A stretch of 64,000 nt of DNA from an uncultured Pelagibacteraceae bacterium (GTDB lineage Bacteria; Pseudomonadota; Alphaproteobacteria; Pelagibacterales; Pelagibacteraceae): positions 38,518-102,517 of the forward strand of contig CACJMW010000002.1 of assembly GCA_902594655.1 (NCBI GenBank). The letters are read 5' to 3'. The first letter of the stretch is position 1, and every line of letters starts with the position of its first letter. Positions 8,026 to 62,811 of this stretch are shown piece after piece. The position numbers were made by a program, and so were the translations under genes. Below the pieces are notes generated by a model. It worked only from the letters and a program-made list of their open reading frames with translations, had not been told where the DNA came from and did no database searches.

Positions 8026-8462
8026 TTATTTCCATTACTTTTTTTTTAGTGATTTTTTTAACACAAATTAGTTTTGCTGAAGAATTTTTAATGTTAAAAA
8101 ATAACAAAGTAAATGTCAGATACGGTCCAAGTTTTGAACATCCAATTAAATATGTTTATTTAAAAAAATATTTGCCTATAAAAATTATTGATAAAAAAGA
8201 AAATTTTAGAAGAATAATTGATCATAAACATAACAGTGGATGGATACACACTTCTCAGTTAAAAAAATCCTCCTCAGTTATTTTAACAGAAAATCAGTTT
8301 ATATTTAATAAACCTACTCAATTTTCAAAACCAATTGCTGTTGCTAAAAAGGGTAAACTTATTTTAATTTCAAAATGCAAAGATAATTGGTGTAAAACCA
8401 AAAATGAAAGTATCTCGGGATGGCTTTTATTTAATAATTTTTGGGGAAAATTGCCTAATTAA
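8013..8462 (+). CDS. Secreted bacterial SH3-domain protein
   Basis: The product has an N-terminal signal peptide (hydrophobic IIISITFFLVIFLTQ, cleavage likely after SFA) and then two SH3b-like units: VNVRYGPSFEHPIKYVY ... SGWIHTSQL and the weaker KPTQFSKPIAVAKKG ... SGWLLFNNFWG. Such proteins are periplasmic and probably bind peptidoglycan or partner proteins. ATG at 8013 gives 149 residues and is preferred to the TTG at 8007. It overlaps the upstream gene by 13 bases and its end overlaps the convergent oxygenase gene by eight. Its exact function is unknown. Confidence 0.8.
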   Translation: MRPIIISITFFLVIFLTQISFAEEFLMLKNNKVNVRYGPSFEHPIKYVYLKKYLPIKIIDKKENFRRIIDHKHNSGWIHTSQLKKSSSVILTENQFIFNKPTQFSKPIAVAKKGKLILISKCKDNWCKTKNESISGWLLFNNFWGKLPN

Positions 8463-9048
8463 AAGGATCCTCTAAAACACAAGCCACAAGATGAACTCTT
8501 GCTTGCTCACCGCCATTAAAAAAATTATGAAATTTTTTGTTATTTGTGATTGTTGCTGTTCCATCAGCAGGCATATGTTTAGCAACGTTTTCGATTACCA
8601 TCATGCATCCTTTGTTAGTGACAATTGGTATATGTAATCTGGGTTCTGGATCTTTATGCCAACTCAAGGTGGATCTAGGTTCTTTTAACAAAAGTCTTAC
8701 TCTGCCAAGTTTGAACTTGGCTTTTAAAGTCTCATAAACTTCTTTAAAATAGGTGTTCTCAAACTCTGGAACAAGCTCAGTATATTTTGACTCATCTATA
8801 TCTATATCTCTTGAAACTTCTTTTCCTGTCTCATCAGCTATTGTCCAGTATTTTCCTCTTACATTATTGCCCTCAACAGAGCTTTTGTCATTTGGAACTC
8901 TATTGAGCGAGATAGCACCAAAATGCGTTACACCAGGAGACTTAAATTTTTTTATCTCCAAAACTTTTTCAAGATCTTTTCTTAGTTTTGAAATATCAAA
9001 TTTTAAATCTGGTACTTGATAAAAATCTTCAAAACTCATTTCCGCCAT
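8455..9048 (-). CDS. Putative 2-oxoglutarate/Fe(II)-dependent oxygenase, aspartyl hydroxylase-like
   Basis: Near residue 130 is WHKDPEPRLHIPIVTNKGC, and about 45 residues later KFHNFFNGGEQARVHLV. Together these resemble the HxD...H iron triad and the 2OG-binding Arg of aspartyl/asparaginyl beta-hydroxylase-like oxygenases. The 197-residue protein is one compact domain with no signal peptide. Its ATG has a good AAGGA ribosome site and follows katG by 14 bases, so it probably shares the irr-katG transcript and iron/peroxide control. The substrate is unknown, and the family call rests on the motif pattern alone. Confidence 0.65.
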   Translation of the reverse strand: MAEMSFEDFYQVPDLKFDISKLRKDLEKVLEIKKFKSPGVTHFGAISLNRVPNDKSSVEGNNVRGKYWTIADETGKEVSRDIDIDESKYTELVPEFENTYFKEVYETLKAKFKLGRVRLLLKEPRSTLSWHKDPEPRLHIPIVTNKGCMMVIENVAKHMPADGTATITNNKKFHNFFNGGEQARVHLVACVLEDPFN

Positions 9049-9062
9049 AAGTTTATTCCTTG

Positions 9063-11285
<2,223 letters not shown>

Positions 11286-11327
11286 CTATTTATTAAAAAT
11301 ATATGATTTAAAATAATCAAAGTCAAG

Positions 11328-11350
11328 TAGTTTAGAATGATTATAAACTA
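11328..11350. promoter_or_regulatory. Irr/Fur-family operator in front of katG
   Basis: TAGTTTAGAA (11328-11337), a TGA spacer, then TTATAAACTA (11341-11350) form a 23-bp inverted repeat with one mismatch per arm. Half-sites TTTAGAA/TTATAAA resemble the alphaproteobacterial Irr box (TTTAGAA...TTCTAAA). It covers the last bases of irr and lies upstream of katG. Its reverse complement is almost identical to the element at 11767-11789. Confidence 0.65.
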
Positions 11351-11767
11351 GATATTCTTAGAAATTTTGAATGTTACTTCTATATCCTCAATTTTTTTTC
11401 CACTTGGAGGCGTTGGTATTTTCTTCAATTCAACTTCTTCACTATTTATATCAATAAGTTCTTTTGTTTGCTCATCATAAAAGTGGTGATGCAAAGAGGT
11501 ATTTGTATCATAGAATGAATTTTCATTTCCTAAATTAATTTCTTTTAAGTAACCTTTTTTTTGAAATGCATGTATTGTATTATAGACAGTTGCTAATGAA
11601 ATTTTTTCATTGTGGAGATTTTTAATAATTTTCATTAGATCACTAATTGAAAAATGAAAAGTTTTATCTCTATCAAAAAGGGCTTCGCAAATTTTAATTC
11701 TTTGTTTTGTAGGTCTTAACCCAGAATTTCTTAGTTTTTTTATATAATTTGCTTCACGGTTAGACAT
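11348..11767 (-). CDS. irr: Iron response regulator Irr (Fur superfamily)
   Basis: This 139-residue protein has the Fur-family winged helix (LRPTKQRIKICEALF, then KISLATVYNTIHAFQKKGYL as recognition helix) and a dimerisation domain. SLHHHFYDEQTKELIDI carries the consecutive histidines typical of Irr, the heme-responsive iron regulator of alphaproteobacteria, rather than the metal sites of Fur. Its place directly upstream of and divergent from fabA is the conserved irr-fabA neighbourhood. A perfect-looking operator overlaps its start codon, suggesting autoregulation, and a second precedes katG. PerR is the alternative, because the gene controls a catalase. Confidence 0.8.
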   Translation of the reverse strand: MSNREANYIKKLRNSGLRPTKQRIKICEALFDRDKTFHFSISDLMKIIKNLHNEKISLATVYNTIHAFQKKGYLKEINLGNENSFYDTNTSLHHHFYDEQTKELIDINSEEVELKKIPTPPSGKKIEDIEVTFKISKNI

Positions 11768-11789
11768 AGTTTATAATAGTTCTAAACTA
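11767..11789. promoter_or_regulatory. Irr/Fur-family operator overlapping the irr start
   Basis: TAGTTTATAA (11767-11776), a TAG spacer, and TTCTAAACTA (11780-11789) form a 23-bp inverted repeat in which nine of ten arm positions pair. It begins at the irr start codon and lies 47 bases upstream of fabA on the other strand, so it could govern irr alone or both genes. Confidence 0.65.
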
Positions 11790-11836: not shown

Positions 11837-12337
11837 ATGAAAAAAAACTCCTATTCTTACGCTGAATTAATAAACTGCGGGGAAGGCAAACTATTTGGGG
11901 CAGGAAATGCAAAATTACCGCTCCCTCCGATGCTGATGTTTGACAGAATAACTGAAATTAGTGAAAATAAAGGTGCTTATAAAAAAGGAATAATTAAAGC
12001 TGCATTGGATATTAAAGATGATTTATGGTTTTTTAATTGCCATTTTAAAGAGGATCCTGTTATGCCAGGATGCTTGGGTTTAGATGCTATGTGGCAATTG
12101 GTTGGTTTTTACCTTGGTTGGTTAGGAAACCCCGGAAGAGGAAGAGCGCTTGGTGTTAGTAATGTAAAATTCACTGGTGAAGTTCTTAAAAATGTCAAAA
12201 TCGCTACATATGAGATTGATATGAAAAGAATACTTATTAAAGGAGAAACTACTGTTGGTCTAGCAAATGGTATATTGTCTGCTGATGGAAAAAAAATTTA
12301 TTCAGCAGAAAACTTAAAAGTAGGTTTGTTTAAATAA
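11837..12337 (+). CDS. fabA: 3-hydroxyacyl-ACP dehydratase/isomerase FabA
   Basis: FabA dehydrates 3-hydroxydecanoyl-ACP and isomerises the trans-2 product to cis-3, the branch point of anaerobic unsaturated fatty acid synthesis. The catalytic His is in [21 protein letters not shown] (residues about 69-89, with the partner Asp in GLDAMWQ) and [15 protein letters not shown] follows. At 166 residues it has FabA rather than FabZ length. The gene overlaps fabB by one base (TAATG), and FabA always works with FabB, supporting the call. An Irr-like operator lies in the promoter region. Confidence 0.96.
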
Positions 12338-61816: not shown

Positions 61817-62811
61817 TAGTTTAAATTTTTCTTAACAAGATGCTCTAATAATTTAATATGATCATCACTATCATTTAGACAAGATATAAATTCAAATTTA
61901 TCTCCACCAGATTTTTCGAAGCTCTCTTTTCCTTGAATCGATATTTCTTCAAGTGTTTCGACACAATCTGATGCAAACCCTGGTGATATTACTAAAACCT
62001 TTTTATTTCCTTCTTGTGGTAGTTTTTCCAAAGTCTTGTCAGTATAGGGCTGGAGCCATTCTTGGGGTCCAAATCGTGACTGAAAAGTTGTAATAATTTT
62101 AATTTCTTTAAATCTTTCAGAAATTAACCTCGTAGTTTTGTGACAATAGCAATGATATGGATCACCTTTTTCAAAATATTTCTTTGGAATGCCATGATAA
62201 GATGCAACTATTAAATCTGGTATCCAATTTATTTCACTTAATTTTTTATTAATGCTATTTACCAGAGCATCAATATATAAGGGTTCGGACTCATAGTGTG
62301 GCACTATTTGAATTGCTGGTTGCCACCTCATCTTCATTAATACTCTAAATACCTCATCACACACTGTTGCAGTAGTTGGTGATGCATATTGAGGGTATAA
62401 AGGAAAAATGATTAAGTTTTCACAACCTTTTTTTTGCATATCTTCTATCTTGCGACTAATACTTGGGTTTCCATATCTCATTGCAAAATCAACAATTAAA
62501 TTTTCATTTTTTATTCTTTGACTTAGTTTGTTTGCTTGCATTTCGGTATAAAATCTTAATGGTGATTTGTTTATGTCATTCATCCATATTTCCTTGTAAG
62601 CTTTGGCTGTTTTAGAAGGTCTAAAAGTTAATATAAATAAGTTTAGTATTACCTGCCAAATTATTGGATTTACTTCAATTACTCTTCTGTCAGATAAAAA
62701 CTCTTTTAAATATCTTCTGATATCCCACCAGCTGGTAGAGTCTGGGGTTCCTAAATTAATTAAGAGAACACCTGTTTTTCCGAAGCTTATTTTTGGATGA
62801 TCTTCATTCAT
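61816..62811 (-). CDS. hemH: Ferrochelatase
   Basis: HemH inserts ferrous iron into protoporphyrin IX. The 331-residue protein has GVLLINLGTPDSTSWWDIRRYLKEFLSDRRVIEVNP at the N-terminus, FPLYPQYASPTTATV near 135, the catalytic His in LIVASYHGIPKKYFEKGDPYHCYCHKT near 205, and the C-terminal FASDCVETLEEI near 285. Cysteines in YHCYCHKT are notable but no C-terminal Fe-S cluster motif is evident. It overlaps hemE by four bases. Confidence 0.97.
   Translation of the reverse strand: MNEDHPKISFGKTGVLLINLGTPDSTSWWDIRRYLKEFLSDRRVIEVNPIIWQVILNLFILTFRPSKTAKAYKEIWMNDINKSPLRFYTEMQANKLSQRIKNENLIVDFAMRYGNPSISRKIEDMQKKGCENLIIFPLYPQYASPTTATVCDEVFRVLMKMRWQPAIQIVPHYESEPLYIDALVNSINKKLSEINWIPDLIVASYHGIPKKYFEKGDPYHCYCHKTTRLISERFKEIKIITTFQSRFGPQEWLQPYTDKTLEKLPQEGNKKVLVISPGFASDCVETLEEISIQGKESFEKSGGDKFEFISCLNDSDDHIKLLEHLVKKNLN

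Follow-up and report, generated by a model that had tools for sequence, protein, structure and literature searches.

Sunlit surface ocean water combines photochemically formed H2O2 with scarce iron, and many of its bacteria have no catalase. The window analysed here, a 64,000-nucleotide stretch from an uncultured Pelagibacteraceae bacterium, carries katG, encoding a heme catalase-peroxidase, directly behind the gene of a Fur-superfamily regulator.

The regulator gene, irr (11348..11767, minus strand), is bracketed exactly by two 23-bp palindromes with identical arms and opposite orientations. Box A, on the katG side (11328..11350, minus strand), reads TAGTTTAGAA-TGA-TTATAAACTA and starts with the irr stop codon TAG (11350-11348). 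The irr-side box (11767..11789, minus strand) reads TAGTTTATAA-TAG-TTCTAAACTA, and its final base is the A of the irr ATG (11767). The reverse complement of the irr-side box is TAGTTTAGAA-CTA-TTATAAACTA, in which all 20 arm bases equal those of box A and the spacer alone differs; the original prediction of two near-identical palindromes, one close to the reverse complement of the other, is thereby borne out. Its assignment of the pair as Irr-type boxes also stands, since each site lies at a promoter and follows the palindrome TTTAGAA-N3-TTCTAAA with one substitution in one arm. Within the window, the pattern TAGTTTANAANNNTTNTAAACTA fits these two sites perfectly and no other site with fewer than three mismatches; when up to three are allowed, four matches are seen compared with 0.75 expected by shuffling. 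A scan of the draft genome (0.90 Mb, 71% complete), as the original prediction had proposed, returned the irr/katG pair as the sole matches with 0-2 mismatches. Matches with three mismatches are no commoner there than those of a control pattern. A large Irr regulon was considered and rejected, since, outside the irr-katG locus, the core motif does not occur more often than the control, and no further target is proposed.

The predicted regulator is a protein of 139 residues with a Fur superfamily domain (PF01475, 74 bits, cut-off 23.1). It scores 127 and 118 bits against the Irr/IrrA models and 63 or less against the PerR and Fur models. The curated NCBIfam cut-offs, 150 bits for Irr and 170 bits for IrrA, are missed, although these models are still the best of all; the PerR family models are not passed either (63 of 200 bits and lower). 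Orthologs at the same locus reach 123 bits in another species of the genus and, against the IrrA model, 146 bits in the sister family and 212-213 bits in more distant families of the class. The window irr adjoins fabA-fabB-fabI, a pairing that recurs in the sister family and in most of the distant class members examined. The protein is called a diverged Irr and an ortholog of Irr because of this synteny and the ranking of the models, not because of a cut-off. The histidine cluster of Irr (HHH or HxH) is heme-related, and the residues H93, H94 and H95 that form it here are unchanged in 10 aligned orthologs. The Cys-Pro heme regulatory motif of Bradyrhizobium Irr was not found in the window protein, whose single cysteine (KICEAL) is not followed by proline. 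Heme-triggered degradation in the Bradyrhizobium style is therefore not assumed, and the signal to the window Irr may differ.

In its layout, the locus resembles the Irr/ICE box (iron control element) regulon of Bradyrhizobium, Rhizobium, Brucella and Rhodobacter, which has a Fur-superfamily regulator beside fabA-fabB-fabI, the TTTAGAA-N3-TTCTAAA palindrome, and targets that include rubrerythrin-like and peroxide-related genes, with the effect set by the position of the box. Irr boxes were reportedly predicted across Alphaproteobacteria in the 2006 survey by Rodionov. The window differs in that one arm of each box reads TTATAAA, in that its genome has two boxes only, and in that katG itself is a direct candidate target, whereas in R. 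sphaeroides, where an irr mutant has increased peroxide resistance, katE lacks an Irr box and is not bound (PMC3413700). The Irr-controlled mbfA (rubrerythrin-like) and ccpA genes of R. sphaeroides offer a further parallel, with Irr boxes at peroxide and iron-stress promoters and a regulon likewise predicted to have two targets. There, however, the enzymes are MbfA and CcpA, whereas in the window the peroxidase gene adjoins irr and is exchanged among species.

The katG gene (9063..11273, minus strand; 1251 bits against the catalase/peroxidase model) occupies what is predicted to be an Irr-controlled slot. Box A is followed, after a single nucleotide, by the -35 hexamer TTGACT (11321..11326, minus strand), of which TTGAC is invariant in relatives, and then, after a 17-nt spacer, by the -10 hexamer TATATT (11298..11303, minus strand). 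Both are good hexamers (10/12). With a start site estimated 7 nt after the -10 hexamer, the centre of box A lies at about -48. A co-directional gene of the Asp/Arg beta-hydroxylase type, a 2OG-Fe(II) oxygenase (8455..9048, minus strand), starts 14 bp past the end of katG and is probably cotranscribed with it. Its match to the Asp_Arg_Hydrox model is weak but over threshold, and some of the katG genomes lack it. Where it is absent, a gene for a small DUF2061 membrane protein is often found 3' of katG (L052, L059, L188, L190 and L196).

Most other katG genomes have a different geometry, in which the box begins 1-3 nt after TTGACA, lies within the -35/-10 spacer and supplies the -10 element with its right arm; -10-like motifs (TATAAT or TATAAA) are present within the boxes. 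Two boxes that flank the -35 element, their starts separated by about 32 bp, are found in G042, G034, G075, G025, G032 and G035, and further in G008, G049, G069, G016 and G105. The clade of the window has kept only the box upstream of the -35 element, having lost the one in the spacer. In seven genomes (G101, G020, G109, G066, G084, G079 and G037), the box that supplies the -10 element ends only some 3-9 nt before the katG ATG, which suggests leaderless katG transcripts.

The genus of the window, represented by more than 100 sampled species, the most complete genomes of which measure about 1.3-1.4 Mb, is the sole genus of its family among the genomes sampled. The named records nearest to its KatG are from single cells labelled uncultured Pelagibacteraceae, and the genus appears to correspond to the HIMB59/AEGEAN-169 lineage, once classed as subclade V of SAR11 (PMC10308909). 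It was compared with a sister family of the same order. When a box is defined by agreement at 15 or more of 20 positions, it is present in the slot behind irr in every one of the genus's 57 katG genomes whose irr-katG interval can be read, with a mean of 17.5 of 20 positions compared with 12.8 in shuffles, and it scores above the best of 60 shuffles in 50 of the 57. It is also present in 33 of 33 rubrerythrin genomes of the genus and in 11 of 11 genomes of the sister family, and the canonical TTTAGAA-N3-TTCTAAA occurs in sister-family slots. Loss of the repeats in relatives with the same gene order would have spoken against an operator role; they are instead conserved there, and irr and katG are supported as targets of Irr, whose binding is predicted. 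In the closest relatives, the box and the CTTGAC that follows it are invariant within variable flanks, except for one box base in one species.

Members of the sister family, and some of the window's genus, have rubrerythrin (PF02915) after irr, and there too a box abuts a TTGAC -35 element. A recognisable box abutting TTGAC also follows irr in distant families (G174, G176, G177, G182 and G184), and in G189, a box and TTGACA are found after irr with other genes next and rubrerythrin further on. The occurrence of this arrangement at rubrerythrin loci and in distant families indicates that the box upstream of the -35 element is ancestral and older than katG at the locus. In three genomes of the group, irr is missing from the assembly, so that katG and fabA are immediate neighbours, and one of the three retains a Fur-like paralog only. 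The cores of the boxes in these genomes deviate at 1-2 positions. In this small sample (n = 3), the decay of the boxes agrees with a dependence on Irr. Elsewhere, in G160 (L136) and G166 (L138), rubrerythrin has been lost behind irr, and an Irr box and TTGAC promoter persist before a short unrelated ORF. In G122 (L133, L167) of the sister family, an irr-katG-2OG cassette of the window's type is present at another genome location, and beside fabA, where irr and rubrerythrin have been lost, a near-perfect box and TTGACA are kept, followed by a small ORF and a gene with a DUF2061 domain.

In the genus, katG is found in 61 genomes and rubrerythrin in 34, and none has both, with about 17 expected (Fisher 5e-14). 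The sister family has 4 genomes with katG and about 39 with rubrerythrin, once more without any overlap (p 0.003). Incomplete genomes inflate the class that has neither gene, but are an unlikely source of an exclusion this complete. Both genes do occur together in G177 and G182, which are distant and have larger genomes. On a DnaK tree, a minimum of about nine changes between the two states is required, four of them forced by supported branches, and one katG genome (G004) is nested in a rubrerythrin clade. A single replacement of rubrerythrin by katG was rejected on this account, the FabAB and Irr trees giving 12 and 7 changes, respectively. A test of the exchange on independent pairs, of which only four are supported, gave p 0.125. 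The KatG proteins of the genus form one clade, within which the G122 cassette is nested, with the exception of G015, where a different KatG sits in the same slot behind the box. A third type, unlinked to irr, is found in one genus of the sister family with a box in three of three genomes (G134, G160 and G166), and paired Irr-like boxes precede katG in G177 and G182, the G182 pair being more degenerate. With boxes at unrelated types of katG, the Irr-katG wiring thus seems to have had more than one origin. The boxes, the promoter geometry, their conservation and the exchange of genes are direct observations on these genomes. The conserved slot box, together with the repeated exchange, indicates that katG took over an old, putatively Irr-controlled rubrerythrin promoter and inherited its operator, a point that the original prediction had missed.

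Most species of the genus have the irr-side box, in the majority at -22 from the start codon, with a conserved TATAATATA element just upstream of it. Its placement fits autorepression of irr, for which it is a candidate operator. Neither the sister family nor those Alphaproteobacteria examined that retain the irr/fabA pair have it at this site, and it was therefore probably gained later, within the window's genus. The divergent fabA gene (11837..12337, plus strand), followed by fabB and fabI, is a synteny marker of Irr. The suggestion that the irr operator also affects fabA is weak, since the box is missing outside the genus and no good fabA promoter overlapping it was identified. The conserved pair of predicted Irr-type operators is real, and the original prediction was mostly right about their targets, with Irr regulation of fabA unproven.

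The likely explanation is that apo-Irr represses katG, the co-directional 2OG oxygenase gene and itself, and that heme or iron sufficiency, or peroxide, relieves this repression. By analogy with characterised Irr proteins, both palindromes would be operators of the Irr encoded between them. Heme-free Irr would bind both; at the irr-side box, it would cover the transcript start and shut off its own gene, and at box A, set against the katG -35 element, it would exclude RNA polymerase. When heme or iron is short, no heme would then be spent on KatG and the Fe(II) oxygenase would not be made; abundant heme, or inactivation of Irr by peroxide, would lift the repression and let katG be expressed. 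Irr is described as an apo-protein active under iron shortage, which represses at low iron and is relieved by heme (PMC7762939, PMC4902296, PMC4700492), and in Bradyrhizobium, H2O2 promotes its degradation, the protein being oxidised or degraded with peroxide (PMC4700492, PMC4902296).

The sign of the regulation at katG has to be weighed with care. A dimer bound in the -35/-10 spacer must block polymerase, and the position of the box in most relatives accordingly favours repression. Box A, just upstream of the -35 element, is not in a position that proves repression, and activation is possible from there. It is conceivable, if doubtful, that Irr activates katG from this box at low iron while repressing itself. 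The window and its closest relatives have retained solely the upstream box, its geometry with the -35 element is conserved identically at rubrerythrin, and Irr is reviewed as activating or repressing by box position (PMC7762939). In Ca. P. ubique, moreover, rubrerythrin is modestly raised, by 1.57-fold, under iron limitation (PMC2864753), which runs opposite to simple Irr repression if the gene is Irr-controlled there. A centre at about -48, however, falls between the sites that class I and class II activators usually occupy, and the katG promoter, with its good hexamers, does not look dependent on an activator. The promoters are homologous, and since the spacer box is in a repressor position, the upstream box is most simply read as a repressor site too.

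A second doubt concerns the signal. As in PerR-katG systems, a Fur-superfamily regulator and putative repressor stands over katG, and the regulator might be mainly a PerR-like, metal-based peroxide sensor for which heme and iron status are secondary. Its targets, katG and rubrerythrin, are peroxide-defence genes, the PerR models rank next after those of Irr, and the peroxide response of Bradyrhizobium Irr points the same way. Peroxide-linked control of katG would also be reminiscent of OxyR; in favour of the PerR-like reading, no match above the OxyR cut-off was found in 27 genomes, but the search was weak, with the cut-off passed by only 1 of 14 control genomes. Model scores and neighbouring genes nonetheless place the window regulator nearer to Irr: its scores with the Irr models are double those with PerR, the PerR cut-offs are missed by more than 100 bits, and the HHH cluster of Irr is invariant. 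A mainly PerR-like sensor is accordingly unlikely. Finally, in an AT-rich genome with -10-like motifs inside the boxes, the palindromes might be promoter parts or products of chance with no operator role. They are unique in the genome, lie far above shuffles and have persisted in different families and while genes were exchanged repeatedly; this conservation largely refutes such a reading, which is very improbable.

The same switch is found before katG or before rubrerythrin, never before both, so peroxide defence in the window's group is probably coupled to the supply of heme and iron. We consider it somewhat probable that, order-wide, Irr owns a fixed peroxide-defence slot behind its own gene, occupied mostly by rubrerythrin or KatG, which are repeatedly exchanged and never found together, with an Irr box beside the same -35 element in front of them. 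Irr would then be a dedicated link between heme/iron status and peroxide defence in abundant, streamlined ocean bacteria, and whether a genome has the heme or the non-heme peroxidase would be a matter of ecological choice. The locus also gives a rule, open to direct testing, for the conditions under which this group produces KatG, and the roughly nine promoter-preserving exchanges form a natural series. Through operator inheritance, an incoming gene would gain an existing regulator by replacing the old target. The new element is the presence of katG in an inherited, predicted Irr-controlled place, alternating with rubrerythrin; no statement of this alternation under Irr was found in the literature searched, a scope outside which the Rodionov survey lay.

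Heme auxotrophy was considered as the basis of the choice between the two enzymes and rejected, as HemB and ferrochelatase are found in genomes of both types. In Bradyrhizobium, Irr interacts with ferrochelatase, and the window has its own hemH gene for this enzyme at about 61825-62778 on the minus strand. A contig labelled Gammaproteobacteria (L209, PBCF01000002.1, 3834-6598) encodes a KatG 77% identical to that of the window, with an Irr-type gene tail-to-tail with katG and two Irr-like boxes upstream. The label is doubtful and may be wrong, because most close relatives of this record also carry an Irr-type protein. The KatG of this contig is sister to all KatGs of the window's clade.
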